DNA of 29,564 nucleotides from a virus. Position 1 is the first letter of the stretch, and each line of letters starts with the position of its first letter. A program made the position numbers and the translations under genes. Under the pieces are notes generated by a model. That model was not told the origin of the DNA, searched no databases, and saw nothing but the letters and a program-made list of their open reading frames with translations. Shown here in pieces: positions 918 to 29,564 of this stretch. The DNA is taken from positions 1 to 29,564 of IMG/VR virus record IMGVR_UViG_3300006347_000031. One strand, written 5' to 3'.

Positions 918-1862
918 TTATCTTGCTTTTACTGGTACTATGCTTCCATTCACTGATAACAAAATATCAGACATAAATGGGGTTGTGTATAAGTAAGAAC
1001 CATCCGATCCTTTCATTATATTAAATTGATCACCATTACTTAAAACACCAGGTGAAAGCAATTGTTGTTTTGTTTTTATAAACATGACTTTATCTTTCGT
1101 CCATACTTCAATTAAATCACTATTTGTTTCTCTTTGCTTATATCCGTCTGGTGTAATTCCATGAAGAAGGTCTGTTCTATCTTTCTTTGGAAATACACTT
1201 TGAGAAGATAAATCAACATCGATATTTGGTCTCATATTGCTATCATAAACCATAACTTGTGAGTTAGGACCATAGTCGTCTATTCTCAATTCTGTTTTAT
1301 AATCTATTTTATCAGTACCTACATTAAGAGTAAGCATTAGTGGTAATTTTGAATCTTTCAACATTACGATTAAGTTGCCCTTTGTTGAATATTTTTTTGG
1401 AGTTAATACCATTACACCTGTATTAATAATATCTTTTGCGATTACTTCTTCTGGTAATGGCAATACATAACTTTCGATAGGCCAATAATTTCCTTGTTTA
1501 TCCAAAAATACAAGTGTTGTACCGTAATTAGGAGACAGATAAATGTCTCTCATTTTTGAAGAGTTGTTTGATTTTACTTCGATTGTTCTAAATAGTGGGG
1601 TAGGATCATAAGGAGCTTCTTCTTCTGCCTTTTTATTCTCCAACGCTTCTTTTTTAATTCTTCTAACTTCATCAGGAGATGTTGGTGATACCTCTTCAAG
1701 AACCCTTTCTTCTGTTAATTTGTTAATAAGTTCAGATCTATCATCACTTAATCTTAAAGGCTCCTCTGCTTTTTTGTTCTGTGCAGCAAAAGACAGTGAA
1801 CTAAAGCCCATTGCCAACAATATTGCTGTACTTAATATTCGTTTATTCATACAAAATTCCAT
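918..1862 (-). CDS. dotH: DotH/IcmK-like T4SS outer-membrane core protein
   Basis: DotH (IcmK; TraN in IncI plasmids) forms the outer-membrane part of the Dot/Icm core complex with DotG, DotC and DotD. The 314-residue product has a Sec signal peptide near its start (hydrophobic stretch ILSTAILLAMG, cleavage probably after SFA-A), a charged linker rich in Glu and Lys (residues 30-85), then the conserved DotH region with an F-x-D-x-x-G-x-x-WPI motif around residues 124-134. It is somewhat shorter than Legionella DotH. Two starts are possible: 1862 (GGGA nine bases upstream) and 1850, which gives a cleaner signal peptide beginning MNKRIL. It lies between dotI and dotG, as in icm operons, with its own candidate promoter just upstream. 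Confidence 0.88.
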   Translation of the reverse strand: MEFCMNKRILSTAILLAMGFSSLSFAAQNKKAEEPLRLSDDRSELINKLTEERVLEEVSPTSPDEVRRIKKEALENKKAEEEAPYDPTPLFRTIEVKSNNSSKMRDIYLSPNYGTTLVFLDKQGNYWPIESYVLPLPEEVIAKDIINTGVMVLTPKKYSTKGNLIVMLKDSKLPLMLTLNVGTDKIDYKTELRIDDYGPNSQVMVYDSNMRPNIDVDLSSQSVFPKKDRTDLLHGITPDGYKQRETNSDLIEVWTKDKVMFIKTKQQLLSPGVLSNGDQFNIMKGSDGSYLYTTPFMSDILLSVNGSIVPVKAR

Positions 1863-2564: not shown

Positions 2565-3392
2565 TTATTTTTTTTCAACTTCAACAACACTATGAACAGC
2601 AATTCCTTTTGGATTCAATTCATTTTTTACTCTTATAATTCTTATATAAGTTTTGAATTTTTTTTGATAATATTTATTACCTGTTTGATAAATTTTTATT
2701 GTATTTAATTCTACCACCCAAGCCATTCTTCTTGATTCTTTTTTAAGTTTTTCTGTTCTTTCTTTATCAAATCTTGCACCATTTAATAAAGCACCTTGAA
2801 CAATCATGTTGTTTTTTCTAACATAAACAGGTTCATTGCTACTTAAAAATTCTTTCTTATATTTAGCTAATGATTTCTCTGTAAAAAATGGTCGAAGGTC
2901 ATCAACATAACCCCTATCTAAATTTACATAATTATAATCAGACATTTTTCTGTATGCCTCTGAAGCAAAATCAATTATTTCTGATTTTGTATGGATTGCT
3001 TCTGTTAATTTAGACGGCTCGAAAGGTCTACCCATTTCATCAACAGGCAAATAAGCGTTTGAAGGCTTGTAAATCATACTTGCATAAACTAATGCATAAC
3101 AAGAAACTAAAAACGTCAAAAATAGGAATATCAGTATTCCTAGCGTTTTTTTATAACCATCTTTATAAAAATCATATTTTGCGAAAGAAGCTATTGCATT
3201 ATTCTTTAATTCTTTTGATATTTCTTTACTTTCTTCGTCAGAAATTAATTTTAATTTTTCTATTCTTTCTGATTCTAGTAATTCTTTACCTTTATTTTCT
3301 TTTGCTTGCTTTTCTTTAAGGGCTTTTTCACGAAGAGCTTTCTTTTTTCTTAATATAGCTTTTTCTTTTTCTGTATATTCTCTTTTTGCCAT
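2565..3392 (-). CDS. Second DotI/IcmL-like protein with long charged cytoplasmic N-terminus
   Basis: This 275-residue protein has a Lys/Glu-rich N-terminus, probably a coiled coil (residues 1-65), one membrane segment (about 84-108) and a periplasmic domain. The domain has a DotI-like layout: an N-terminal helix region with D-F-A-x-E-A-Y, then the strand R-M-A-W-V-V-E-L near residues 222-229. It lies between dotJ and the shorter dotI and is probably part of the same inner-membrane complex, in which DotI forms oligomers with and without DotJ. The extension is not typical of DotI and may bind a cytoplasmic partner; that is inference. Ribosome site AGAGG lies before the ATG at 3392. Confidence 0.65.
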   Translation of the reverse strand: MAKREYTEKEKAILRKKKALREKALKEKQAKENKGKELLESERIEKLKLISDEESKEISKELKNNAIASFAKYDFYKDGYKKTLGILIFLFLTFLVSCYALVYASMIYKPSNAYLPVDEMGRPFEPSKLTEAIHTKSEIIDFASEAYRKMSDYNYVNLDRGYVDDLRPFFTEKSLAKYKKEFLSSNEPVYVRKNNMIVQGALLNGARFDKERTEKLKKESRRMAWVVELNTIKIYQTGNKYYQKKFKTYIRIIRVKNELNPKGIAVHSVVEVEKK

Positions 3393-3985: not shown

Positions 3986-6649
3986 ATGGCAGCACAAAAA
4001 AAGAATAGAATTGTTCAAGGTGTCGATTTCAGGAATGAGGTCGATCCAAACAAAATGTATAAGGATAGTCGAACTAACGGAGAAAAATTTAAAGATTTCA
4101 TGTTTGCAGAAGGTGGTCTTTTGCTTGCAATGGCAATTTCATTAATTGTTTCTATGGAGGTCTTACTTACACTTCTTGGTAAAAAAACATTTGGCTTATC
4201 TATATGGATGGTGGTTTTCATACCTTTTTTCAAGAAAAGATCTGGGCAAATTACTGTCCTACCGTTTAAAAAACCTGAAACTTCTGGTGAATTAGACGTT
4301 AATCAGTTGCATCCTGTAACAAACATGCCTACACCAGCAAAAGGAATTTCCTTTTATGGTAATGAAATGAAGTCAAAAGATCAAATTTGGTTTGCAAACG
4401 ACGATGTTCGTACTCACTGTCTCATATTTGGGACAACTGGAGCAGGTAAGACAGAGACATTATTATCTATTTGTATGAATAGTTTAATTCATGCTTCAGG
4501 TTTTATATATGTTGACGGAAAGGGTGACAACTCTCTGTTTTTAAAGGTTTTTTCTATGGTTAGGCGTATGGGTAGAGAAGACGATTTACTACTTATAAAC
4601 TATATGACAGGTACTGTTGATACAACCAAGAAAACATTTGATAGGTTATCAAATACAATGAACCCATTTTCCAGTGGTTCAGCCGATGCACTTACCGAAC
4701 TTATCGTTTCTCTTTTACCATCTGGTGGCGGTGACGGAATGTGGAAAGGCCGTGCGGCAATTTTCATGGCGGCATTAATGCGTGTTCTTGTTGCACTTCG
4801 TAACGAAAGAAAGATAATGCTTGACGTAAATACTATACGTAAACACTTTTCATTGGAAAAATTAGAAGAGCTAATTGCAAGAGAAGATGTTCTTGATGTT
4901 CACAAAGATGGTTTGCAAGATTATGTTTGGAACTTGCCTGGTTATGTGAAACCAGATCCAGCAAAACCAAATGAAAAGATAGAACAAGACTACGGTGTAT
5001 TTGAACAGCATGGTTTCATTACGATGCAATACACCGAAGCTTTTGGTTTGTTATCAGATACTTATGGTCACATCATGAAAACTCAATTGGCCGAGGTTGA
5101 CTTCTTTGACGTTGTTGTAAACAGAAGAATTTTGGTTGTTCTACTCCCGGCTCTTGAGAAGTCTACTCAGTCATTAGGGAACTTAGGTAAAATCATTGTA
5201 TCTTCTGTTAGAGCAATGATGGCACAAGCACTTGGTTCAAAAGTTGAAGGTAGTAGAAAAGACGTTGTTGAGGCAAAGCCTACAAACGCTCCTAGCCCTT
5301 ATGTAACCGTATTTGATGAATATGGCTACTACGCAGTTGAGGGGGCGGCCGTGATGCCAGCCCAGGCACGTTCCCTGGGATTCGCAATGATCTTCGCAGG
5401 TCAGGATTATCAAGCCTTTAAGAAGGGTAGTGCCGAAGAGGCCGCTTCTATAGTAGCTAACTGTGCGGTAAAAATTTGTATGAAATTAGAGGACCCGACC
5501 GAGACGCTAGAGATTTTCACGAAGGCGGCAGGTGAAGCAAGTGTTAACGTTGGTAGTGGCACTCAATTAGATAAAGAATCTACATTAGGTGGCTACCGTG
5601 ACTCTGGTCAAGCTAACGTTACTTCTAAAGCTCGTATTGTTGGTCGTGATCTTAAAGACCAAGTTGCTGGTGAAGCACATATTCTTTTCGGTGATACATT
5701 CGTTCGTGCGAAAATGTTTTATGCTAACCCAGAACAAGTTGATAACCAACGTATTAACAAATTTTTACGTGTTCCAATGCCAGAATATTCTGTCGTTAGA
5801 AGACTTACATTAGGTTATAACAGAATTAATAGAACATATCAAGACTTTTTAACACCTGAATCAAAAGAACGTAAACAAGATGTGAACTCGTTCATAAAAG
5901 ACAGTATTAGTGAAGATTTAAATATTGTTAATGGTGGTTTATCTGCAATTAATAAGAGCACTAAAAAGGAAGTTGCTAAATTTAAAAACCCACAAACAAA
6001 AGCTATGTTAGCTCTATATAGTCATATGAGAAGACAGAATCTTCTTGACGCTCAAATAACTGAAGATAGAGAAGCGATTGATAAAATACATAAAGAAGAA
6101 AATAGTTATGATGACAAAGATGATAATGTTTATGTTAGCACAACTAAAAGTGAAGACTTTAATGACGAACCAATCTTTGATCAATCTATTGATTTAGATG
6201 ACGAAGAAGATACACCTAGTATTCGTGAAAAAGTTAGTGGCAGCGCAAAAGAAACGATGTCTGATCGTCAAATTACAAATAAACATAAAAGACTTGATAA
6301 TCTACGTGCTTATTTACAAAAAGCGCACCAAGAACAAGAAGGTAATTTATCAAGTGAAAAATACAATCCATTTAAGATTATGGAATTTGATATTCAAAGT
6401 GTCCAAAGTGGATTAACAAAAGTTGAAAAAGATTTAACAAACGATTTCTCTCAACGTGGACTAGAAACAGATGACGAAGATTTCCGTCAAAGTGATGATT
6501 GTGCTACAATGTCTACAGAAAAAGTTATTTTGGAAATTGCTCGTTCTACTGCTTATGCGAGTCAAGTTAAACTTAACAAACGTGAAAATAACAAAGAAAT
6601 GTTGAATGATATTATTAACGATATTATTTTAGATGACGTTGACGATTAA
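3986..6649 (+). CDS. dotL: DotL/IcmO-like type IV coupling protein ATPase
   Basis: DotL (IcmO; TrbC in IncI plasmids) is the inner-membrane coupling ATPase that delivers substrates or the relaxosome to the T4SS. The 887-residue protein has two membrane segments (about 43-65 and 70-82), a Walker A GTTGAGKT (149-156), a Walker B V-T-V-F-D-E (440-445) and the conserved A-Q-A-R-S-L-G block near 460-466. From about residue 600 it carries a long, acidic, probably flexible C-terminal region. In Legionella the corresponding part binds adaptors such as IcmS-IcmW. The gene is about 100 residues longer than Legionella DotL. Start at 3986 has an AAGGA site. Oddity: codons for residues 452-472 are much more G+C-rich than the rest. 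Confidence 0.9.
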   Translation: MAAQKKNRIVQGVDFRNEVDPNKMYKDSRTNGEKFKDFMFAEGGLLLAMAISLIVSMEVLLTLLGKKTFGLSIWMVVFIPFFKKRSGQITVLPFKKPETSGELDVNQLHPVTNMPTPAKGISFYGNEMKSKDQIWFANDDVRTHCLIFGTTGAGKTETLLSICMNSLIHASGFIYVDGKGDNSLFLKVFSMVRRMGREDDLLLINYMTGTVDTTKKTFDRLSNTMNPFSSGSADALTELIVSLLPSGGGDGMWKGRAAIFMAALMRVLVALRNERKIMLDVNTIRKHFSLEKLEELIAREDVLDVHKDGLQDYVWNLPGYVKPDPAKPNEKIEQDYGVFEQHGFITMQYTEAFGLLSDTYGHIMKTQLAEVDFFDVVVNRRILVVLLPALEKSTQSLGNLGKIIVSSVRAMMAQALGSKVEGSRKDVVEAKPTNAPSPYVTVFDEYGYYAVEGAAVMPAQARSLGFAMIFAGQDYQAFKKGSAEEAASIVANCAVKICMKLEDPTETLEIFTKAAGEASVNVGSGTQLDKESTLGGYRDSGQANVTSKARIVGRDLKDQVAGEAHILFGDTFVRAKMFYANPEQVDNQRINKFLRVPMPEYSVVRRLTLGYNRINRTYQDFLTPESKERKQDVNSFIKDSISEDLNIVNGGLSAINKSTKKEVAKFKNPQTKAMLALYSHMRRQNLLDAQITEDREAIDKIHKEENSYDDKDDNVYVSTTKSEDFNDEPIFDQSIDLDDEEDTPSIREKVSGSAKETMSDRQITNKHKRLDNLRAYLQKAHQEQEGNLSSEKYNPFKIMEFDIQSVQSGLTKVEKDLTNDFSQRGLETDDEDFRQSDDCATMSTEKVILEIARSTAYASQVKLNKRENNKEMLNDIINDIILDDVDD
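5341..5400 (+). other. G+C-rich patch with hairpin inside dotL
   Basis: These 60 bases are 67% G+C (40 of 60), while surrounding DNA is about 30-45%. The patch uses codons (GCC, GTG, CTG, TCC) rare elsewhere in the window and encodes the highly conserved coupling-protein segment after Walker B. Within it CCCAGG (5361-5366) and CCTGGG (5374-5379) form a perfect all-but-one G/C six-base-pair stem with a seven-base loop. G+C stays moderately raised to about 5530. Confidence 0.6.
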
Positions 6650-9512: not shown

Positions 9513-10439
9513 TTAAAATATTAATTTTATTAAATCTGGATAATATATAAATAAAAAGAATGATAATATTATCGCAGGACCGAACGGGAGTTGATATTCT
9601 TTTAATTTTTTCTTAAAAGGTATTAATGCTATAAATTGTAGCACACCGATTACTGTTGATACTACTACTAAAAATACTAAATCTTGATAGCCTATCCAAG
9701 CACCGACCATAGCATATAGTTTTATATCTCCTTCGCCCATTGCGATATCAATACCTCTCAGCTTTTCATAACCTTTTACGAAACCATAAATAATTAAATA
9801 ACCAAGTATTGCTCCCAATACAGCTTCATTAATCGGAACAATTTGATTTTCAATGTTAGTATTATAATATAAACCCAAGAACAAGCTTCCAAGCGTAATA
9901 CTATCTGGTAGAATTCGGTGCTTCATGTCTATCGCAGCAGATGCTATTAATGCAGTAAACATTAATGTGAAAAACAAGAAGTCTATTGTTAATCCAAACA
10001 TATAATAACTATAAGCCCAAAATGCACCTATTAATAATTCAATGATAAGATATTGTGGCGAATATGAAGTTTTACAATAAGCACATTTACCACCTAAAAG
10101 AATATAACTTAACACTGGAATGTTATGCCAAATTGCAATATTATGACCACAACTACCACAACGTGAAGATGGTAAAGCTAAATTCATGCCTTTATTTGCC
10201 AACACTTCACTATATTCTTTTTTTTCTTCTTTCGTCATTTTTGAAGTTATTACATCATCTGGTAATTCTGTCATTTCTTTTACTATACCTAAATATTCAA
10301 GTGTCATCATTATAGGTAATCTATAAATAACTACATTTAAAAAACTGCCTACGAAACAGCCATATATAATTACTAATGTATAAGCGAGAATAGGATTTGT
10401 TCTCATATTTTCTATAAGTAAAGAAAATAATTCACTCAT
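9513..10439 (-). CDS. pilD: Prepilin peptidase / N-methyltransferase (PilD family)
   Basis: This polytopic inner-membrane aspartic protease cleaves class III prepilin leaders and methylates the new N-terminus. The 308-residue protein has the N-terminal G-S-F-L-N-V-V-I-Y-R-L-P motif (31-42), a cytoplasmic methylase loop with two Cys pairs (C94-x2-C97 and C119-x2-C122), and several membrane segments. The catalytic aspartates lie in D171-M-K-H-R-I-L-P-D and in the G-x-G-D motif GEGD (235-238). Both aspartates are present, so it should be active. A strong AAGGAG ribosome site precedes the ATG at 10439. It stands alone, but its likely substrates are the pilin-like proteins encoded at 23821-29564. 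Its loop between residues 45 and 85 is longer than usual. Confidence 0.92.
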   Translation of the reverse strand: MSELFSLLIENMRTNPILAYTLVIIYGCFVGSFLNVVIYRLPIMMTLEYLGIVKEMTELPDDVITSKMTKEEKKEYSEVLANKGMNLALPSSRCGSCGHNIAIWHNIPVLSYILLGGKCAYCKTSYSPQYLIIELLIGAFWAYSYYMFGLTIDFLFFTLMFTALIASAAIDMKHRILPDSITLGSLFLGLYYNTNIENQIVPINEAVLGAILGYLIIYGFVKGYEKLRGIDIAMGEGDIKLYAMVGAWIGYQDLVFLVVVSTVIGVLQFIALIPFKKKLKEYQLPFGPAIILSFFLFIYYPDLIKLIF

Positions 10440-18335: not shown

Positions 18336-18362
18336 AAAAAAGAAGGCAAAGCCTTCTTTTTT
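18336..18362. terminator. Bidirectional terminator between dnaB and ruvB
   Basis: AAAAAAGAAGGC (18336-18347) pairs perfectly with GCCTTCTTTTTT (18351-18362) around AAA. A/T flanks on both sides allow termination in both directions. It overlaps the ruvB stop codon at 18361-18363 and mainly serves the minus-strand ruvB transcript. Confidence 0.75.
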
Positions 18363-19374
18363 AATAATCTTCTTCTGGAATATTTTCTTTTATATAGGTA
18401 ATACCTTTTTCTGTTAATTTTCTACCACCTTTTGTTTTTGATAGTAAACCTTTTTTAATAAGGAATGGTTCTATTACATATTCAATTGTTTTTTCTTCCT
18501 CTGATATATATGGAGAAATTGCTTTAAGTCCAACTGCTTTGTCTTTAAAACCATAATGCATACAATGTAACATTTTTCTGTCCATTTCATTTAAACCCAA
18601 CTTATCTATTAATAGTTTATCTAAAGTTTCTATTGCAAAATCCTTATCTATTTTTGCTTCATTATTTACCAATGCATAAGGGCGTAATCTTCCAAGAAGG
18701 TTGTTTGCAATACGTGCTGTGCTTCTTGACCTCTTTGCAATTTCCATTGCTGCTTCAAAATCTAAATTGACTTCTAATATATCTGCCGATCTTGAAAGCA
18801 TTTGAGCAAGTTCTTCATTTGTATAGAATTTTAATTGGTGGGTTACATTAAATCTATCTCTTAGCGGCTGAGAAATACTACCTGGTCGTGTTGTTGCTGC
18901 TATTAATGTAAACTTTTTAATCGGTAAATGTATTAATTTTGTGCCACCACCATTATCTATGTTTATATCGAGGGTAAAATCTTCCATTACAGAGTAAAGA
19001 GATTCTTCTATTTTTGTTTTCAATGCGTGAATTTCATCTATAAATAAAATATCTCCTTCTTCCAAACTCATTAACGTTGCTGCCAAATCTGCTGGTCTTT
19101 CAATAATTGGTGCAGAAGTAATATGTAAATTTGCTTCTTTTGCATTTGCTATGATTTTTGCTATGGTTGTTTTACCAAGACCGGGTGCTCCAAAAAACAA
19201 CATATGACTAAGCTGTTCGTCCTTCATTTTTGAAGCTTTTATTGCAACTTGAAGCTCTTCTTTTATATGATCTTGACCAATATAGTGTTCAAAGGTCAAA
19301 GGGCGCAATTTATTACTTGCATTTTCTTCGTTTTTAAGGCTTTTTTCGTTTCCTTGCTCTTTAAAATTAGACAT
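18361..19374 (-). CDS. ruvB: Holliday junction branch-migration ATPase RuvB
   Basis: RuvB is the AAA+ motor that, with RuvA, drives Holliday-junction branch migration. The 337-residue product has Walker A G-A-P-G-L-G-K-T-T (62-70), Walker B F-I-D-E-I-H (111-116), the sensor region A-A-T-T-R-P-G (159-165), the P-L-R-D-R-F arginine-finger block (170-175), and a C-terminal winged helix ending with the typical I-E-P-F-L-x-x-K-G-L-L motif. I set the start at 19374 (AGAGGGA upstream), which gives the usual RuvB length. A longer frame to 19599 would overlap parE and adds no RuvB sequence. No ruvA or ruvC is present nearby. It is divergent from parE. Confidence 0.92.
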   Translation of the reverse strand: MSNFKEQGNEKSLKNEENASNKLRPLTFEHYIGQDHIKEELQVAIKASKMKDEQLSHMLFFGAPGLGKTTIAKIIANAKEANLHITSAPIIERPADLAATLMSLEEGDILFIDEIHALKTKIEESLYSVMEDFTLDINIDNGGGTKLIHLPIKKFTLIAATTRPGSISQPLRDRFNVTHQLKFYTNEELAQMLSRSADILEVNLDFEAAMEIAKRSRSTARIANNLLGRLRPYALVNNEAKIDKDFAIETLDKLLIDKLGLNEMDRKMLHCMHYGFKDKAVGLKAISPYISEEEKTIEYVIEPFLIKKGLLSKTKGGRKLTEKGITYIKENIPEEDY

Positions 19375-19400
19375 TTTTCCCTCTTGTGTTAAAATAATTC

Positions 19401-19428
19401 TTGAAATTAAAAAATATTTGTATAAAAT
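19401..19428 (+). promoter_or_regulatory. Possible parE promoter
   Basis: TTGAAA (19401-19406) and TAAAAT (19423-19428) are 16 bases apart in the 130-base divergent gap between ruvB and parE, leaving a leader of about 70 bases before 19505. Support is only moderate in this AT-rich gap. Confidence 0.3.
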
Positions 19429-19504
19429 ACTTGAATTATTGTCAAAAGTCAATAAGAATATAGTAGCGCACAATAGTAAAAAGTAATAAGGAAATAATAT
19501 AACA

Positions 19505-21484
19505 ATGAGTGAGAAAGAATATAACTCCCAGAGTATTGACGTTCTTGAGGGTCTTGACCCTGTCAAAAAGAGACCAGGGATGTATACCAATACTGACAAT
19601 CCTAATCATATAATTGAAGAAGTTTTAGATAACTCTCTTGACGAAGCATTGGCAGGTCATGCAACAAAAGTTTCTGTCACATATCGATTAGACGGCAGTG
19701 TTCAAATACAAGATGATGGGCGTGGTATCCCAACAGATATACATGAAAAAACAGGAATTCCAGCAGTCGAACTTGTTTTTACAAAACTACACGCAGGTGG
19801 AAAATTTAACAGTGAAAACTATGGTATGTCAGGCGGTCTGCACGGTGTTGGTGTCTCTGTGACAAATGCATTATCAGATAAATTAATTGTAGAAGTTAAA
19901 AATAAAGGTCACAAAGAAGTTAGACAAATTGTTTTTGAAGAAGGATTTGTTACTCAGCCTGTTCAAAAAGTGGGTTCTTGCCTTAAAGACGAATCGGGAA
20001 CAAAAGTTACTGTTTATCCGACAGCAAAATACTTTGCTGAACCAGAATTTGATTACAAAGAATTTATGAAATTAATGCAAGAGAAAGCTGTATTAATGTC
20101 TGGTTTACATTTGGTTTTTAATCGTGAACTAGAAAATGGTGAAATGGAAACAAAAGAATGGCACTACAACAATGGTATTTCTGATTACCTTGCTGAACAA
20201 TTAGATTCAGAAGATATGGTCACTCCTATATATACTAATGAAAATTATGTTGGTGAAGATAGTGATAATTACAGTGATATGGTTGGTGAAGGATTAGAGT
20301 TTTCTATTGTTTGGACACAAGAACGTAGTTTTAAAAAGAGTTTTGTAAACTTGATTCCTACCCCAAGTGATGGAACACATGTTGCGGGTTTTAGAAATGG
20401 ATTATATGAAGCACTAAAATCATTTGCAACAATGCATGGTTTGATTCCTAAAAATGTAAAATTAGTTGCTGATGATATTTGGGGTAAAGCTGCATTTATC
20501 TTATCCGCTAAAATTATTGACCCTGAATTTCAAGGACAAACAAAAGATAAGTTAAATAATAGATATGTTATTAATATGTTTAGTGGCTTAGTTCGTGATA
20601 ATTTTGAAAACTGGTTGAACTCTAATATTGAAGCTGGTAAGGTTCTTGCAGAATTAGTTATCGAACAAGCAAAAGCACGTTCTAAGAAAAGTTTAAAAAT
20701 TGAAAAGAGACAAACTGGCTCAGTTGTAAAGTTACCTGATAAATTAACAGAGTGTAAAACAAAAGATCCTGCACTTTCAGAACTTCTTATTGTGGAAGGG
20801 GACTCGGCAGGTGGCTCTGCTAAACAAGGTCGTGACCGTGAAACACAAGCACTTATGGCTCTTAAAGGTAAGCCATTAAACACTTGGGAACTAGAATCAG
20901 ATAAAATATTTGGAAACTTAGTAATTAATGATCTTAGTATTGCAATTGGTGTTGACCCGCATGGAAGACACGATGACGTAGATTGGAGTAAATTACGATA
21001 TCACACAATTTCTATTCTTTCGGATGCGGATAAAGATGGATTCCACATTCAGGTTTTATTGATTTCATTATTTATGAAACATTTTCCACAATTGATAGAG
21101 AAAGGTTATATTAAAGTTATTCAACCACCACTTTATCGTATTGATGTGACTTACAAAAACAAAAGAAAGAAAGAGGATCGTAATAAAACTATTTATGTTT
21201 TAGACGAAGAAGAAAAAGAATCAGCGATGAAAAAACTTAAAAAACAAGGTGTGGATCTTGAAAAAGATATTTCAATGCTTCGATTCAAAGGATTGGGTGA
21301 AATGAACCCAGAACAGTTGTATGAAACTTCATTGTGTAAGGACACCCGAAGAATTGAAACTCTTGAAGTCAATGATTGGGACTCTACTTTGAAAGCAATG
21401 GACAACCTTATGATGAAGAAAAAAGCAGAACAACGTGCTGAACTTATTATGAAGTACGGTGATTTTGAAGCGGATTTTGATTAA
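19505..21484 (+). CDS. parE: DNA topoisomerase IV subunit B (ParE)
   Basis: ParE is the ATPase subunit of topoisomerase IV, which decatenates replicated DNA. The 659-residue protein starts with the ParE-like A/I-x-V-L-x-G-L-x-P-V-x-x-R-P-G-M-Y-T block and keeps the GHKL ATP site (E-V-L-D-N-S-L-D-E-A, D-D-G-R-G-I-P, G-G-L-H-G-V-G). It also has the Toprim signatures V-E-G-D-S-A-G-G-S-A and D-A-D-K-D-G. The T-N-T-D/T-D-T and G-K-x-L-N-T-W-E features favour ParE over GyrB, as do length and lack of the long GyrB insertion. An AAGGA element precedes the ATG at 19505 at somewhat wide spacing. parC follows after 26 bases, so both subunits are made together. Confidence 0.93.
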   Translation: MSEKEYNSQSIDVLEGLDPVKKRPGMYTNTDNPNHIIEEVLDNSLDEALAGHATKVSVTYRLDGSVQIQDDGRGIPTDIHEKTGIPAVELVFTKLHAGGKFNSENYGMSGGLHGVGVSVTNALSDKLIVEVKNKGHKEVRQIVFEEGFVTQPVQKVGSCLKDESGTKVTVYPTAKYFAEPEFDYKEFMKLMQEKAVLMSGLHLVFNRELENGEMETKEWHYNNGISDYLAEQLDSEDMVTPIYTNENYVGEDSDNYSDMVGEGLEFSIVWTQERSFKKSFVNLIPTPSDGTHVAGFRNGLYEALKSFATMHGLIPKNVKLVADDIWGKAAFILSAKIIDPEFQGQTKDKLNNRYVINMFSGLVRDNFENWLNSNIEAGKVLAELVIEQAKARSKKSLKIEKRQTGSVVKLPDKLTECKTKDPALSELLIVEGDSAGGSAKQGRDRETQALMALKGKPLNTWELESDKIFGNLVINDLSIAIGVDPHGRHDDVDWSKLRYHTISILSDADKDGFHIQVLLISLFMKHFPQLIEKGYIKVIQPPLYRIDVTYKNKRKKEDRNKTIYVLDEEEKESAMKKLKKQGVDLEKDISMLRFKGLGEMNPEQLYETSLCKDTRRIETLEVNDWDSTLKAMDNLMMKKKAEQRAELIMKYGDFEADFD

Positions 21485-21510: not shown

Positions 21511-23784
21511 ATGAAAATAGATGACGTATTTATAGACGTAGCGGATTACTCAACTCAGAAATACATTGAGTATGCCGTTGCGGTAGTTGCTGACCGTGCA
21601 TTGCCTTATGTGCATGACGGTCTAAAACCAGTTCATAGACGTATCCTTTACGCTATGACTGGATTAGGAATTAAATCAAAAGAAAAACCAAAAAAATCGG
21701 CACGTATCGTCGGTGACGTAATTGGTAAATATCACCCACACGGTGATGCTTCTGTTTATAATGCTATGGTTGCATTAGCGCAAGAATGGAAAATGAGATA
21801 CCCATTAGTTGCTTCACAGGGTAACTTTGGTTCTCGTGATGGGGATGGTGCGGCTGCCATGCGTTATACTGAGGCAGGAATAACGCCATTTGCAGAAGAT
21901 GTTTTATTGGATGAAATGAGAGAAGGCACTTGTGATTTTGTTCCTAACTTTGATGGCACAATGAGCGAAGTTAAACTACTTCCTTCAAAATTAAACAACT
22001 TATTACTAAATGGTTCTTTTGGTATTGCAGTAGGTATGGCGACAAAAATTCCTTCTCACAATATTAGAGAACTAACAGACGCTACATTGGCTTATATCGA
22101 TAATAAAGATATTACTGTTCCTGAAATTATGGAAATCCTAAAAGGTCCCGACTTTGCAACAGGTGGTCAAGTAATCACTTCTCGTGAAAAAATACTAGAG
22201 GCTTATGAAAAAGGTCAAGGTATTATTAAGATCCGTTGTCGTTGGAATGTTGAAAAATTGGCAAGAGGTCAATGGAGAGTAGTTGTTACAGAACTTCCGC
22301 CCGATTCTAACATAACTAAAGTTTTACAAGCTATTGATAAAATAACAAATCCACCTGTTCAAAAAGACTCAAAAGGTAAAAATAAACCTTTAAAAGCGAG
22401 TGTCTTAAAAGATAAACAGTTTTTAACAAGCATACTTGCAAAAGCAGAAAATGATTCTGATTCTAGTGGCTTAAGACTTATTTTAGAACCGAAATCTAGC
22501 AAACAAGATCCAGAAGAATTTATGAATCTTTTATATTCTAGAATTGGTCTAGAAGAAAGCTTTGGCATTAATTTAACTATGGTTGATATTAATAAAACAC
22601 CTAAAAGAACAAACATAAAAGAATACATTGAAGAATGGGTTGATTACAGAAAAGAAGTTTTAAGAAGAAGACTTGAATTCCATCTTGCAAAAGTGCAAAA
22701 AAGACTTCATATCTTAGAAGGTCGTTTAAAAGTTTATGAAAATCTTGATAAAGCTATTGATATTATTAAAGAGAGTGAAGAACCAAAAGAAGAACTTATG
22801 GAATTCTTTGATTTATCAGAACAACAAGCAGAAGATATTTTAGAAATAAAACTTCGTCAATTAGCTAAACTAGAAAAAGATAAACTTCAAAAAGAATATG
22901 ACAAACTTAAAAAAGAAGAAGAAAAATATTTAAGACTTCTTAATTCAGAAGCTAGATTTATTAGTTTAATGAAAAAAGAAATTGAAGAAACAACAGTTAA
23001 GTATGAAGATGAAAGAAGAACTCTTCTTGAAGAAGCAACAGAAGCAGTTGCTAAATCTACTGACGCTATTGTTGAAGAACCTGTTACTGTTATTTATACT
23101 AAGCAAGGTTGGTTAACAATGAGAAAAGGTCATAATGTTGATACTAGCACTGTTTCATTTAAAGATAATGACGAGCCAGAAAAGATTCTTGAAATGAAAA
23201 CGACTGAACAAATTGCATTCTTAGCTACAAATGGTCGTGGATATAGTATTAGACCAACAGAAGTGCCTAATGGTAAAAATAATTTCGTTCATATTAAGAG
23301 TTTAGTTGACTGTGGTGATGCAAATGTTGTTGATGTAATGGTCGGAAACAAAGATAAACTTTATGTTTTCTCTAATAGTGATAGCTATGGTTTTGTTTCT
23401 CATGCTGAAAACTTAGTTTCTAAGAATAAAGCTGGTAAGCACTTTATGTCTTTACCTAACAAAAACACAACAATCTTTAAAGCTCTTGAAATAAACCCAG
23501 ATCAAGGAGAGAGATTGAATATTCTATCTTCTGATTATAGATTATTGAGCTTTGACGTTAAAGAAGTTAAACAATTGGATAAAGGTAAAGGTGTTCAGTT
23601 AATAAGACTAAAAGATGATAGTATGAGTATTATTGATGTTTCTTTATCTCCTATTGAAGAGCTACCTGTTTTACACGGACAGAAAAAGAAAATATACAGA
23701 GATGAAGAGCTAGAACCATTTAATAGTAGTCGTGCTAGAAGAGGTAAGGTTGTCCCAGACAACACAACTCTTTCAAAAGACTAA
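21511..23784 (+). CDS. parC: DNA topoisomerase IV subunit A (ParC)
   Basis: ParC is the DNA-breaking subunit of topoisomerase IV. The 757-residue protein has the winged-helix core with G-K-Y-H-P-H-G-D (72-79), the active-site Tyr119 in A-A-M-R-Y-T-E, the V-P-N-F-D-G-T block, a coiled-coil region (about 390-500) and a C-terminal pinwheel domain without a GyrA-box Q-x-x-R-x-G-K-G pattern that I could see. At the positions equal to E. coli ParC Ser80 and Glu84, which bind fluoroquinolones, it has Ala80 and Asn84. AGGAG lies before the ATG. The gene is complete and followed by a strong terminator. Together with parE it makes a full, element-encoded topoisomerase IV. Confidence 0.93.
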   Translation: MKIDDVFIDVADYSTQKYIEYAVAVVADRALPYVHDGLKPVHRRILYAMTGLGIKSKEKPKKSARIVGDVIGKYHPHGDASVYNAMVALAQEWKMRYPLVASQGNFGSRDGDGAAAMRYTEAGITPFAEDVLLDEMREGTCDFVPNFDGTMSEVKLLPSKLNNLLLNGSFGIAVGMATKIPSHNIRELTDATLAYIDNKDITVPEIMEILKGPDFATGGQVITSREKILEAYEKGQGIIKIRCRWNVEKLARGQWRVVVTELPPDSNITKVLQAIDKITNPPVQKDSKGKNKPLKASVLKDKQFLTSILAKAENDSDSSGLRLILEPKSSKQDPEEFMNLLYSRIGLEESFGINLTMVDINKTPKRTNIKEYIEEWVDYRKEVLRRRLEFHLAKVQKRLHILEGRLKVYENLDKAIDIIKESEEPKEELMEFFDLSEQQAEDILEIKLRQLAKLEKDKLQKEYDKLKKEEEKYLRLLNSEARFISLMKKEIEETTVKYEDERRTLLEEATEAVAKSTDAIVEEPVTVIYTKQGWLTMRKGHNVDTSTVSFKDNDEPEKILEMKTTEQIAFLATNGRGYSIRPTEVPNGKNNFVHIKSLVDCGDANVVDVMVGNKDKLYVFSNSDSYGFVSHAENLVSKNKAGKHFMSLPNKNTTIFKALEINPDQGERLNILSSDYRLLSFDVKEVKQLDKGKGVQLIRLKDDSMSIIDVSLSPIEELPVLHGQKKKIYRDEELEPFNSSRARRGKVVPDNTTLSKD

Positions 23785-23790
23785 TAAAAT

Positions 23791-23818
23791 AAAAAAGCTC
23801 CTAGAAAGGAGCTTTTTT
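23791..23818. terminator. Bidirectional terminator between parC and the pilin gene
   Basis: GCTCCT (23797-23802) pairs with AGGAGC (23807-23812), extended by six A-T pairs on each side, around a four-base loop. The A- and T-runs let it work on both strands for the convergent genes parC and the large pilin-adhesin. Confidence 0.82.
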
Positions 23819-23820
23819 AT

Positions 23821-26800
23821 TTAGTTTTTAAAACAATAACCTGCTGATTCGTGGTAATCACCCAAACATCTAAGTTCTGCTTTGTAAGTTTCTGTTATTT
23901 GACAATAACCGTCTTTCACAACGCCATCACAAGTATCTACTTTACTGTATTCAATGTTCGATACGTCTGCTTCTATTGATATGTTGTAATCATAGTCTTT
24001 CAACAAATCACAATTACTATTTTTACTTACATATTCTTCTTTTAATGTTTTTGAAGATTTCCATTTAGATTTAGAAAGTATTCTCATGTTAGAAATTTCT
24101 GTTTCTTTTTGATAATCTACACCTTCAACAATCGTCTTACTGTTTTCTTTTATTAAATCTAAATAGTTTTTGTCTTCACAAATTTCTTTAAATTTGAATC
24201 CACCAAGATTTAATTCAACAACAGTGTCACCTGTATCACTGTGTCTAATCTTAATATCACCTTTCATTTTTTCAGATTTATTACTGTCTTCAACTAAGTC
24301 AACACTAAATGCAGTATTTGTAACTTTTAAACAAGTTCCAGATATATTCCTTATATCTGCACCACAAGACGATGATAATGATTTTACTCCGCTATCGTCG
24401 TCTATAATTGTTACAATCAATTCACTATTACCTATGACAACACCACTTTCTGGATTACTTAATACTATTTTAAATGTTTCGTCTGCTTCTGCAAGGTCAT
24501 CCCCATTTATGGTTACACTTATTTCTTTCTCGATTTCACCAGCAATGAATGTTAAATCTTTTGATGTCCCAATATAATCTTGAATAGGAGTGAACAATCT
24601 AACATTACCTTCTGACCAACCTGCATGGATATAATCATTCGAACTCATTCCGTTCCATAATTCATGGTTTCTTCCATATTTTGAAGACGATAAGCTATTC
24701 CAAATCGTTTGCAATTTATAAGCGTCATTTCCTGTGTGTCTATTTACTGTTCCATAAAATTCAGAACCAAATTTCCTTAATATTTGATTACCTGTTCTTT
24801 GGAAATAACTATGGTCAGTTATAATATATACACCACCACCATTGTTAATATACGTTGTAAAATTGTTCGCAGACTCATTTGTAAGAGAATCCCAGCCACC
24901 AGAAGACATTACAACAATTGCAGAATATTTATTCATTTCTTCTAGTGTTAAATTTACTTTTCTATTCGCTGATTTACTACCATTAAAATCAGGATGAGAA
25001 GCTTCTTTTATTATAGGAGTAAAACCTGCTATTGAGATAACACTTGGTATTGAAGTATCGAAATCGCTACCTGCGTTTTCATGAACAGAATAAGAATGAC
25101 CTTCTATTGCGTCACCATAAATTAATACCTTACCTCTTGATTTATGAGTGTTACTAATCCATTTTATTACATTATGCATGAAAATAAATTGATCTTGAAG
25201 TTCATTGAATTTCGTTGCTCCATTCCATTGATTGTTATAATATTTAGGGAAACCACCGTCAAACATTAATCTTCCACCATTTGGGTTATCAACAATTGAT
25301 ATAAATGGATTTCCATATTCGTCATAGACCAAGTTCTCTGTTTCTGATAGTATTGAAGTTGTTGTTATATCTTGTGTATTTACACGATAAGTAACGTCTT
25401 CTTCAAAAGGCTTGTTTAGTTTTATTTTTATTTTAAATTGAGAAGTTGTTCCATAATCACCTTCTACTATTTCTAAATCTTCTGGTTTGATCTTATCAGG
25501 ATCGAATCCAGCAGCCGCAACCTTACGTTTAACTTCTCTAATTTCCGTCTTATATTCTTTGAACGGGTTTTTATTGTTAGGAGTTTCACCAAATTGTAAC
25601 ACAGACTCAGGAATCAATCTCTTATCCCCAAATCTAATATCTATCTCATACCAAGTACCTGTTCTTTCTAAATCTAATTTGCAATATTTTCTCATGTAGT
25701 AATCGTCTTGTGCAGAGTCATAATACATTGTTTCTTCTGTGCATTCATAGAAAGAACCCGTTTCAACCCATTCTGTGTATTCAAAAGGTTGACTCTTCCA
25801 TATTTGAGTTTCTTCTATTGTTCTATATTCTAAACGAACTTCACCTGTTTCTCTTATATTACCAGAGTTTATATCCCTCTCTCTTACATATTCTTCTTTG
25901 TATTGATCTAGCTTACATTCTCTTTTACTATAATAAAGATTTTCTTCTGGTGAATATTCTCTTATCGAAGTCCCGCAAGAATAGAATTTTTTGAAGTCGT
26001 CATCTAACCAACCGCTATAAATTGATTCATAAGGAACCCATTTTGGTTCTTGAGGTTTTAATGTACTGTCACCTTCTGTTTCTTTGTCACCTTTACCATA
26101 CATACAATAAGTCACTGTTTCATAATTTGGCATATTATTGTGAGATTTGTTTCCACCTACATATGTAGATATACGTTCTGAATCATTACTAAACACTGAA
26201 CTACCATCTTTTGTATGTGACATACCTTGGCTGTTAACACATCTATTTTCATAAGCATACCACGTAAATGGAGGTGGACAATCTTCTTGTGGCACTCCTC
26301 TATGACAAGTATCACATATATGTTCAAACTTTGGTGTTGCGTGATGGTGCTCTGCCATTTGCTCTTCTGTTAAACCAACAAATGTTTCACCACCCTTATC
26401 ACCTACTTTATAAAGTAATTCTGACATAAATGCTTCTTTGTATTTGCCAGAACCCATTAAAAATCTTGAATGAACATCTTCTACTTGTTTCCAACCAGTT
26501 GGACAAGTGCCATTAAATGCCATTATTTCACCATAGTTATTCGATTGCCAAGTATATTTGGTTTGATCTGTATGGCTGGTTCTACAGGTTAAAACAACAC
26601 CTTCTTTACCTACTGTTATTTTTCTTGCTAAATTTTTTTCATTTTCTCCTGCAAATTCACAAGAGTCACCTATTTTTATATTCAAATCTGATTTAAATGC
26701 TTTTGCTTCAAAAACTATATCGTCTATTGGATCTGACATAAATGCAGCTAAAACTTCTATATTTATATTTTCATATGCTAAATTCCCATATATATCTTTT

Positions 26801-28167
26801 TCTGGTTCCAATAAAGCATTTGAAATGTAAGCATTTTCCTTAACTCTAAATAATGTCCCATAAGAATCTAATGTCGATATTTTTAACATGTCTTTAGTGA
26901 CGCTTGTTGTTTTTTCACCTACATCTAAATCTTTTAGCATTTTTACTGATTCTTTCATTACTGCTTCACCTGAAACATTCAAGTCTTCCAGTGTTGCCTC
27001 TGAGTTATTTAAGTTATTATATAAATTTAATGCTACATTTAATATATCAACATTTTCTATTGATTCAGAAAAAAGATTTTCACTTACAAACATTTTATTT
27101 ACAAATTGCCTATCTACCAACTGAATAACGATTCTTCCTTTTGCATGGCTAGGTTTTGCTGATTGTAATTGACCACAAGGAGAAGAACCATTTATTTCAA
27201 TTCCTTTTCCCATATCTCTACTGTAAATATTACATACTTTATCTAACACTATTTTTTCATTAGAGTTAAAAGAATCTTCAATATTCACATGAACAGTTGA
27301 AGGAACAGGAGTCCCTTTTATTGAAAATAATCCAATACCACACTCTATTGGTGAGCTTGACCAGTTTCCACCTAGATCTTCTTCCCAAATTAAACATGTT
27401 TTTATAGAATCTGAATTAATTTTATCGTAAATAAAAGAAATATTTGAAGATATCATAGAGTTTGTGCCATCTGTTTTTAATGACTGAAATGCTCCTGCTC
27501 TTTCCCAAGACGCTTTTATCAAACAATTATCTTTATTTGTTGAACATTCGAAATTAGATAAAACTTTGTCAGAACTATCAACTAAACTATATTTATTAAT
27601 TCCATTTTTGTTTGCAAAATCATTGGATTTTAATCTGTTGAATATATTGCTTATTTTTTCAAATCTTTCTCTGTAATCAGATATTTCTTTTGGTTTTGAT
27701 ACAGGCGGATTTAAATAAATAGAAAAAGATTCAATAAAGCCTTGAGAATCTTCTTTTGTTTTAATTTTTAAATCACTATTTAATGGTAATTTTGTTTGCC
27801 AAAAATTACAATCAATGAAAGCCCTTTCTTTTTCCGATTCTAATCTTGGTTCCCAACCATTTGATTTACCACAAATTTTATTGTTTTTTGCAATGAATGT
27901 TTCTAAAACATAAGGTGCAATTTCACTTAAGCCCTCTGCTTCACTACCAGAAGTCCAAAAATTATAACTATATCCGTCAATTGATATTCTTGTGTCAACA
28001 GCTTTCAATAATGTTGTTATATCTTTTGCTGCCGCTCTTTCAGAAACATATTTTTGATATTCACTGTATCCTTTTACACCACCAATTGCTATTGTGGATA
28101 TTAATGATAAAGCAATTAAACTTTCTATTAAAGTAATACCAGATTTTTTAAAAATTCTTTTTTTCAT
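23821..28167 (-). CDS. Giant type IVb pilin-adhesin with tail-collar, Calx-beta and Rossmann-like domains
   Basis: The 1448-residue protein starts with a class III prepilin leader (MKKRIFKKSG, cleavage before ITLIES with Glu at +5) and a hydrophobic pilin helix, so it should be processed by PilD and placed on a type IV pilus. Then come a pilin-like body (to about 370), a linker, and a phage-tail-collar-like module (about 589-690: G-G-E-T-F, then H-H-H, later N-M-P-N-Y and Y-C-M-Y). Two Cys-containing repeats follow (about 709-765 and 792-845). A Calx-beta domain (about 896-937 plus 1195-1257, ending D-E-T-F and T-I-I-D-D-D) appears split by an inserted Rossmann/amidotransferase-like domain. 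A Cys-rich tail ends it. I prefer ATG 28167 (AAGGA eight bases upstream, overlapping the previous stop) over 28182. Likely role: PilV-like tip adhesin. Confidence 0.75.
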   Translation of the reverse strand: MKKRIFKKSGITLIESLIALSLISTIAIGGVKGYSEYQKYVSERAAAKDITTLLKAVDTRISIDGYSYNFWTSGSEAEGLSEIAPYVLETFIAKNNKICGKSNGWEPRLESEKERAFIDCNFWQTKLPLNSDLKIKTKEDSQGFIESFSIYLNPPVSKPKEISDYRERFEKISNIFNRLKSNDFANKNGINKYSLVDSSDKVLSNFECSTNKDNCLIKASWERAGAFQSLKTDGTNSMISSNISFIYDKINSDSIKTCLIWEEDLGGNWSSSPIECGIGLFSIKGTPVPSTVHVNIEDSFNSNEKIVLDKVCNIYSRDMGKGIEINGSSPCGQLQSAKPSHAKGRIVIQLVDRQFVNKMFVSENLFSESIENVDILNVALNLYNNLNNSEATLEDLNVSGEAVMKESVKMLKDLDVGEKTTSVTKDMLKISTLDSYGTLFRVKENAYISNALLEPEKDIYGNLAYENINIEVLAAFMSDPIDDIVFEAKAFKSDLNIKIGDSCEFAGENEKNLARKITVGKEGVVLTCRTSHTDQTKYTWQSNNYGEIMAFNGTCPTGWKQVEDVHSRFLMGSGKYKEAFMSELLYKVGDKGGETFVGLTEEQMAEHHHATPKFEHICDTCHRGVPQEDCPPPFTWYAYENRCVNSQGMSHTKDGSSVFSNDSERISTYVGGNKSHNNMPNYETVTYCMYGKGDKETEGDSTLKPQEPKWVPYESIYSGWLDDDFKKFYSCGTSIREYSPEENLYYSKRECKLDQYKEEYVRERDINSGNIRETGEVRLEYRTIEETQIWKSQPFEYTEWVETGSFYECTEETMYYDSAQDDYYMRKYCKLDLERTGTWYEIDIRFGDKRLIPESVLQFGETPNNKNPFKEYKTEIREVKRKVAAAGFDPDKIKPEDLEIVEGDYGTTSQFKIKIKLNKPFEEDVTYRVNTQDITTTSILSETENLVYDEYGNPFISIVDNPNGGRLMFDGGFPKYYNNQWNGATKFNELQDQFIFMHNVIKWISNTHKSRGKVLIYGDAIEGHSYSVHENAGSDFDTSIPSVISIAGFTPIIKEASHPDFNGSKSANRKVNLTLEEMNKYSAIVVMSSGGWDSLTNESANNFTTYINNGGGVYIITDHSYFQRTGNQILRKFGSEFYGTVNRHTGNDAYKLQTIWNSLSSSKYGRNHELWNGMSSNDYIHAGWSEGNVRLFTPIQDYIGTSKDLTFIAGEIEKEISVTINGDDLAEADETFKIVLSNPESGVVIGNSELIVTIIDDDSGVKSLSSSCGADIRNISGTCLKVTNTAFSVDLVEDSNKSEKMKGDIKIRHSDTGDTVVELNLGGFKFKEICEDKNYLDLIKENSKTIVEGVDYQKETEISNMRILSKSKWKSSKTLKEEYVSKNSNCDLLKDYDYNISIEADVSNIEYSKVDTCDGVVKDGYCQITETYKAELRCLGDYHESAGYCFKN

Positions 28168-28171
28168 TGTA

Positions 28172-29564
28172 TTATCCTTCATAAATACAGTAGTTTACTA
28201 CGTAGTATGGTGGTCTATTTTCGTGAGATTTGTCTTTACCAGCAGGACCTGTTGGTATTTCATTTGCATTACTCCATACAGTATCCCCACGAGCACCAAC
28301 TTTTGCCATTGCATAACCAGCACAGTCTGACCCACTACAGCTTGCTTTTATGTCTGGAACTTCATGGTTGTGAATTGGCATTTCATCTTCTGTTAAGGTA
28401 TGGAATGCTTCACCACCACTATCGCCTACTGCATATTCTAATACATTTCCTTCTTTATTAAGGAAAGCTTTTTTTTCATTTACTAATTTATTTATTTCAC
28501 TCGGAGTTAAGTCTTTAAGCTGTGTTTTGTTTTCTCCTAGTAAAAATCGACCTGCTGCTTTTTCAAAATATGTAAATCCAACTGGACAACTTCCATCAAA
28601 AGCCGCTATTTGACCAACTCTTGCATTTGCCAATTTCCATTGTTCTTTTTTATTCCCGTTAATATCTGTATATGTTGTGCAAATTACAGGTTCTGTGTGT
28701 AAAACTTCAACTCCGTCAACAACTTTTTTAATTTTTAAAACTTTCATTGCACCTTCAAAATTTGGATTATGTATATCTGTTGGATCTGATTTATTACCAA
28801 AACAATATTTATGTAAACTAGTGCTATCTATTACACCTAATTTTAGATGGTTTGCTTTAACAAAACTATTATCCCCTGACAAGGTTAATGTTCCAAATAT
28901 ATTTACATTTTTTTCAAAAACAGAATTCGAAGTTACTTTTAATGTGTCTATTTCTGTTGAACCATTTACTGTTAATTTATTTTCTATTATGTTTTCTTCA
29001 CCCAACATTCTGACTTTATCGTTGAAAACAGACTCTTTATTTACCATTAATTCATTTAATTCAGTGTTACCTGCAACCATTAATGTATTTTCAACAGTAA
29101 GTGTTCCTGTTTCAATGTTTGAAACATTCAAAAGATTTACATAGCCTTCTGTTGTATGTAATTCATCTAAAACGCCCACTGCTACATTTACACCTGAGTT
29201 ATTTTGAGTCATCATCCCGCAAGGAACTTTTTGAATTATTCCTGATATTTCCATGTCACATAAAGAATCTAAGTTAAATCTTTGTGCCGAAGCCGAATAA
29301 ACGTCAGCCTCTACAAAAGAATGACCTTTATCTGGATCTATACCTATACCGCAGTCTAAGTCACCTTTTCTAACCCAACTATTTGTCGCATTTGAATATT
29401 CATATGTAAAACAAGTTTGAATCGTATTTAAATCATCTAACCTTTCTTTAAATGTTATTTTACTGTTTATCATACTGTTGGAGCCAGTCACGTCTAAATA
29501 CTCGACACCTTCTCCGTCAGCTTGGTATTGAGCTAAGAAAGCACAACTTGTGTTTAAATTTAAA
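28172..29564 (-). CDS. PilV-like pilin-adhesin with tail-collar-like C-terminus (N-terminus outside the window)
   Basis: The reading frame is open to the window edge, so the gene starts beyond 29564; the GTG at 29489-29491 is internal. The visible 463 residues match the first third to half of the giant protein next door in order and motif: N-S-M-I-x-S, a C-x-x-E/Y region, a C-G-I-G motif, a P-C-G motif, and the linker with repeated S-V/T-V-N-x-T strand patterns (beta-rich, like a fibre shaft). It ends in a collar-like domain: G-D-S-G-G-E-A-F, then E-M-P-I-H-N-H, and final R-P-P-Y-Y-V-V-N-Y-C-I-Y. That is the standard end of phage tail-collar fibre tips. Probably a pilus-tip adhesin that recognises recipient cells. 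The stop lies between ribosome site and start of the next gene. Confidence 0.75.
   Translation of the reverse strand, partial: LNLNTSCAFLAQYQADGEGVEYLDVTGSNSMINSKITFKERLDDLNTIQTCFTYEYSNATNSWVRKGDLDCGIGIDPDKGHSFVEADVYSASAQRFNLDSLCDMEISGIIQKVPCGMMTQNNSGVNVAVGVLDELHTTEGYVNLLNVSNIETGTLTVENTLMVAGNTELNELMVNKESVFNDKVRMLGEENIIENKLTVNGSTEIDTLKVTSNSVFEKNVNIFGTLTLSGDNSFVKANHLKLGVIDSTSLHKYCFGNKSDPTDIHNPNFEGAMKVLKIKKVVDGVEVLHTEPVICTTYTDINGNKKEQWKLANARVGQIAAFDGSCPVGFTYFEKAAGRFLLGENKTQLKDLTPSEINKLVNEKKAFLNKEGNVLEYAVGDSGGEAFHTLTEDEMPIHNHEVPDIKASCSGSDCAGYAMAKVGARGDTVWSNANEIPTGPAGKDKSHENRPPYYVVNYCIYEG

Follow-up and report, generated by a model that had tools for sequence, protein, structure and literature searches.

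The stretch of DNA considered here, hereafter the window, comprises the 29,564 bases of the IMG/VR record IMGVR_UViG_3300006347_000031 and encodes on its minus strand a giant prepilin, in which a Calx-beta domain is split by an inserted module remotely related to ThuA. The open reading frame (ORF) and its parts are as follows:

23821..28182, minus strand: giant prepilin ORF, 1453 amino acids, with an alternative start Met at 28167
28048..28182, minus strand: prepilin-type (class III) signal, residues 1-45, KSG/ITLIESLIALSL (NCBIfam and sequence)
26095..26532, minus strand: phage tail-protein-like region, residues 551-696 (phrog_8763, E value 2.1e-6), also present in a paralogue encoded upstream
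25549..26085, minus strand: Tyr/Cys-rich linker with an apparent repeat, residues 700-878 (recognised by eye in the sequence)
25354..25488, minus strand: Calx-beta first half, residues 899-943 (splice test)
24598..25341, minus strand: inserted ThuA-like module, residues 948-1195, of the phrog_11065 family (profile comparisons and model)
24394..24588, minus strand: Calx-beta second half, residues 1199-1263, ending in DDD (Pfam E value 3.7e-10; Foldseek match to CALX CBD1, E value 8e-5)
23824..24393, minus strand: C-terminal Cys-containing region, residues 1264-1453, without a family match in the Pfam scan

At the N-terminus, both Glu5 and a hydrophobic stretch accompany the KSG site, as in a type IV prepilin signal, and the region matches the NCBIfam prepilin-peptidase-dependent protein family (E value 3.9e-5).

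The initial annotation of this DNA had proposed that a Calx-beta domain is interrupted by some 255 residues, and both the interruption and its length hold. In the native protein, the second half matches the Pfam Calx-beta profile (PF03160, curated cut-off 27 bits) with 40.3 bits and an E value of 3.7e-10, residues 1201-1263 covering profile positions 54-119 of 119. The first half by itself has no match in Pfam, and in Foldseek the solved Calx-beta domains aligned with just the second half, both of which would be compatible with there being no insertion at all, the first "half" being an unrelated strand-rich stretch and the second a partial Calx-beta domain that follows a ThuA-like one. Nonetheless, when the insert is spliced out, one continuous Calx-beta match emerges over profile positions 23-119 with 56.4 bits, whereas nine control splices, in which 62-residue pieces from elsewhere in the protein took the place of the first half, reached 44.0-45.8 bits and began at profile position 54 or, in one case, 47. 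The true first half therefore adds 10-12 bits that no control adds, and on the splice test with its controls a chance resemblance of this half to Calx-beta was rejected. Since only the real first half lifts the score and extends the match to position 23, and four further relatives also match continuously once spliced (V. owensii 55.9, Photobacterium 68.9, viral contig L043 47.2 and phage PaBG 36.1 bits), the absence of an insertion is very improbable. The corresponding native, unspliced scores are 41.2 bits for V. coralliilyticus, 20.7 for PaBG and 30.5 for L043.

The insert measures 255 residues and lies near Calx-beta profile positions 51-54, so that the domain is not the continuous stretch of about 100 residues by which Calx-beta is recognised; a profile built from relatives of the module bounds the insert at residues 948-1195 (239 bits). 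The same split of Calx-beta is found in V. coralliilyticus plasmid p380, V. owensii, a Photobacterium, phage PaBG and contig L043. Judging from these sequence comparisons, this is a real insertion into a Calx-beta loop, with the split conserved in independent relatives. The motifs from which the interruption had originally been read are all present, at VEGDYGTT 906, VTYR 930, KVLIYGD 1018, AIVVMSSGG 1088, NNGGGVYII 1113, DYIG 1202, LTFIAGE 1210, ADETF 1233 and TIIDDD 1258; the residue numbers first given for them were 5-8 too low, apparently because the numbering began at the second Met (28167).

With regard to the structure, an AlphaFold model of residues 885-1275 (predicted local distance difference test, pLDDT, 81.7; predicted template modelling score, pTM, 0.74) shows three strands, then an alternating alpha/beta core, then four to five strands. 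A model of residues 1-390 of the phage protein PhiPA3 gp235 (pLDDT 83.5, pTM 0.81) likewise has strands flanking the module on both sides. A fold search had been suggested at the outset, and with Foldseek, a sequential local method, the second half of the 885-1275 model did match the solved CALX CBD1 structure (E value 8e-5), while the match did not bridge the insert to span both halves. Over the whole length of the model, the BFVD database returned a virion protein of a Ralstonia phage (392 columns, template modelling score, TM, 0.60, E value 1.7e-28), and PaBG was also matched. The splice test, the confidence of the model and these full-length structural matches together predict that the two halves join in one beta-sandwich, and to that extent they gave no sign of the separate halves that would have spoken against the initial proposal. 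An alpha/beta insertion into a beta-sandwich has a precedent by analogy in the integrin beta subunit, an adhesion protein whose hybrid-domain beta-sandwich accommodates an I-like alpha/beta domain within one loop. The layout is the same; however, the split Calx-beta module shows no homology to it, and a relationship to the integrin I-domain was rejected (Foldseek probability 0.25 or less, TM 0.18 or less).

The inserted piece had been likened early on to ThuA and class I amidotransferase-like folds, a likeness that profile comparison bears out. The Pfam ThuA profile (PF06283) scores 17.5 bits on the insert, or 21.1 bits in another run, below its curated cut-off of 33.4, and a search of the PDB for the fold of the module gave no confident match. 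A profile search of the PDB with the insert found 2gk3 (0.007), a putative cytoplasmic protein which we take to be amidotransferase-like. When the module was compared by hhalign with an alignment of 34 ThuA proteins taken from other genomes, the probability was 93.8, with an E value of 1.7e-7 and a score of 56.6 over 142 columns. By the same procedure, 60 column-shuffled controls scored at most 27.8 against ThuA, DJ-1/PfpI scored 23.1 (probability 3.1), the Rossmann family TrkA_N 16.0 (probability 0.2), and ThuA against DJ-1 27.5. Since shuffles and other alpha/beta families score far below 56.6, the relationship to ThuA is a specific though remote one within the class I amidotransferase-like fold; a merely generic Rossmann similarity was rejected on the scores of TrkA_N and DJ-1/PfpI. 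ThuA and the module agree in the order of their core alpha/beta elements and can be aligned at 'yv~~GGG~~~iH' and at 'DHP', while the latter protein part differs in an extra DGGFPK hairpin, in its position inside a beta-sandwich and in its sub-threshold Pfam score.

Across 38 sequences of the module family, D954, D975, K980, D1123 and R1148 (alignment positions converted to the numbering of the giant prepilin) are invariant, and H1173 and E1191 nearly so. In the AlphaFold model these charged residues fall mostly after strands, at the strand ends, as expected for a predicted ligand or active site. Together with the ThuA-specific profile match, the invariant residues would also suit an active sugar-modifying enzyme of the ThuA type, altering glycans of the target cell or extracellular glycans so that the pilus or virion reaches the envelope; the module would then be more than a head that simply binds. 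Yet the H of the ITDH motif is replaced in several phage members, the phiKZ-group member also lacks the DHP motif, and the literature found does little to define the chemistry of ThuA itself; an enzymatic role is possible, if short of probable.

Residues 922-1195 match phrog_11065 (E value 2.3e-39), a family from phiKZ-like jumbo phages annotated as 'virion structural protein', with named matches in PhiPA3 (gp235), Noxifer, Psa21, HRDY3, KTN4, SCTP-2 and PaBG (gp238), and 60 IMG/VR contigs carry it, many of them longer than 200 kb. In a set of 84,980 species, each represented by a single genome, it was found only in a Photobacterium and V. owensii, a lower bound since that search was pattern-limited; in further samples of 296 and 398 genomes the sole match was the centre genome itself, and a presence in ordinary chromosomes was rejected on these samples. 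Searches of viral and genome contigs with the whole protein returned no relative, whereas the module alignment did find relatives. On Vibrio campbellii pIFL1_1, a 129-amino-acid stretch (L009:5965-6354) holds part of the module and the start of Calx-beta beside a site-specific integrase, and looks like a decayed copy.

In most phages, a short beta stretch is followed by the module and then by a second beta stretch, and this host domain is clearly different from Calx-beta. The leading stretch of SCTP-2 matches the first 39 of the 67 CHB_HEX_C_1 positions (E value 0.004, under the cut-off), and its first half, the models and the position of the module point to a CHB_HEX_C_1-like host; the assignment is tentative because splicing out the module did not raise this weak score. 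Since other host domains in phages carry the same module, the middle piece is a separate unit, as had been supposed. On contigs L036 and L042, a third kind of host domain surrounds the module, close to the C-terminal end of a viral protein that also has InlB-like repeats.

The module can itself be interrupted: 17 loci, namely PaBG gp238 (L004:3522-7175) and 16 from IMG/VR (e.g. L047, L049 and L071), have a further domain nested in it after FPKFYN. These nested domains are apparently of at least two unrelated kinds, one phrog_33406-like in PaBG and another in L045-L064. In the module tree, the nested insert was gained or lost at least 7 times, and the phage rows of the CHB type lie on one side of a branch (Shimodaira-Hasegawa approximate likelihood ratio test, SH-aLRT, 89). 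A single clade of Calx-hosted rows is not rejected (approximately unbiased test, p-AU 0.298), two rows having very long branches. The architecture of PaBG, in which Calx-beta holds the module and the module a further domain, illustrates repeated domain insertion in nature with unusual clarity.

Outside phages, the full-length carriers whose surroundings were read (the window, the Photobacterium and p380) sit near or on conjugation genes. In the Photobacterium, TraV and TraC are encoded a few genes upstream; p380 carries TraD, TraI, TraC, TraV, TraF, TraH and TraG, and is typed as non-mobilizable by PLSDB. The V. owensii locus holds the same gene as p380, on a contig of about the size of that plasmid. 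In the window, Pfam and NCBIfam profiles recognise genes of type IVB transfer (type IVB secretion system, T4BSS) and a prepilin peptidase:

918..1862, minus strand: T4BSS outer-membrane core protein DotH/IcmK (Pfam E value 1.3e-33)
2565..3392, minus strand: T4BSS protein DotI/IcmL (Pfam E value 7.4e-13)
3986..6649, plus strand: TrbC/IcmO-type conjugation coupling ATPase (NCBIfam TrbC_conju, E value 1.4e-110)
9513..10439, minus strand: prepilin peptidase (A24), the expected processing enzyme (Pfam E values 5.8e-21 and 4.8e-29)

Because of these T4BSS/IncI-like transfer genes and the peptidase, the window looks like a fragment of a conjugative element (a plasmid or an integrative and conjugative element) rather than a piece of a virus. 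Among plasmids, those of Piscirickettsia salmonis are closest in the coupling ATPase (49% identity). The GC content of the module (32.3%) is near that of the window (31.6%), so composition gives no sign of recent import, and a recent acquisition judged on this basis was rejected.

We propose that the conjugative element is of type IVB (IncI-like) and that the giant prepilin would act in it as a giant minor pilin resembling PilV, with a distal part assembled from phage-tail-type modules. Near the protein end, the Calx-beta beta-sandwich would be the holder, and the ThuA-like alpha/beta domain, set in one sandwich loop between the 'dGtA' and 'sDY' positions, would be presented outward as a recognition head for a surface molecule, most likely a glycan, that the recipient cell displays; the same head would do an equivalent job on jumbo phage virions. 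By analogy with PilV, the pilin may sit at the pilus tip. Its location in the pilus, the type of ligand, the outward presentation and any catalysis are presumptive, and a PilV-like giant pilin with a Calx-beta-held ThuA-like recognition head shared with jumbo phage virions is, as a whole, probable with modest confidence. The module is most simply taken as a head for recognising target surfaces because it is common to virion and conjugation-linked surface proteins, has a conserved charged site and has a relative in sugar metabolism. Its occurrence on both sides suggests a common means, in phages and in conjugation, of docking on target cells.

Several observations weigh against this proposal. 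On p380, some 33 kb or more separate the tra genes from the module gene, and the carriers on plasmids of the Vibrio family appear to be secreted rather than pilin-like. The giant prepilin scores 14.6 bits with Pfam N_methyl, under the cut-off, and no PilV or shufflon family matched it in the Pfam and NCBIfam scans, although the window stops just upstream of the paralogous pair and a neighbouring pil operon would fall outside it. The similarity to ThuA covers about 142 columns, the C-terminal part of ThuA being missing, and none of the family members has a known ligand or activity. Furthermore, PHROG files phrog_11065 under head and packaging, so the phage proteins may be structural and not receptor-binding. 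Carried further, the module would serve virions and pili only as a structural spacer or in assembly, without contact with the target, which would also suit the stable inheritance of the host-domain type, with the phage CHB group on one side of a branch. Such a role is unlikely given the conserved, charged, pocket-like residues, the presence of the module on conjugation-linked elements, where there is no capsid, and the nested domains, whose changes, seven or more, are typical of variable receptor-binding proteins. A bolder version of the recognition head, namely that the module is a mobile cassette with which both jumbo phages and conjugative elements dock on their targets, that it exists exclusively as a loop insert in beta-sandwiches, of which at least three have served as hosts, and that it accepts further inserts and acts enzymatically on surface glycans of the entered cell, seems doubtful.

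Among known systems, PilV adhesins of the IncI2 plasmid TP114 recognise sugars of the recipient lipopolysaccharide (PMC10654706). Like the PilV tip adhesins of IncI1 and IncI2 plasmids (R64 and TP114), the giant prepilin is a long minor pilin on a type IVB-type element with a proposed part in recipient recognition (PMC10654706, PMC9045228). It differs in being much longer, in its Calx-beta/ThuA and tail-like modules and in giving no match to the PilV family; no inverted repeats suited to a shufflon at its 3' end were seen in 23500-29564, and no invertase was recognised. The phage proteins of phrog_11065 (PhiPA3 gp235, annotated as similar to phiKZ gp201) belong to the same module family, with about 25-32% identity between the insert and the named phages, but they are virion components rather than prepilins, with a CHB_HEX_C_1-like host near the N-terminus instead of Calx-beta. 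The design, new to the initial annotation, is also without a description in the open-licence papers searched, where neither Calx-beta with tail fibres or jumbo phages, nor ThuA with tail fibres, nor a domain insertion in Calx-beta was found. The family phrog_11065, in PHROGs just a 'virion structural protein', can now be identified as remotely related to ThuA and as sitting within a beta-sandwich, and a jumbo-phage virion family is now linked to conjugation proteins. If the module does recognise target cells, the same part would help to decide which cells giant phages enter and to which cells plasmids transfer.

The paralogue of the giant prepilin lies directly upstream, and the two long proteins are encoded in tandem with a slight overlap:

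28172..29491, minus strand: upstream paralogue with the same tail-like C-terminal region, its frame open to the window end and its N-terminus beyond it

The two align by BLASTP with an E value of 3e-29 (27% identity over 500 columns), and the split Calx-beta extension is found only in the giant prepilin. At the other end of the window, positions 45-905 encode a DotG/IcmE-like protein (the match to DotG being weak) with a run of decapeptide-like repeats GFDxxGY. Three further genes on this mobile element, read from the sequence, appear RuvB-like (18361-19599), ParE/GyrB-like (19505-21484) and ParC/GyrA-like (21511-23784).

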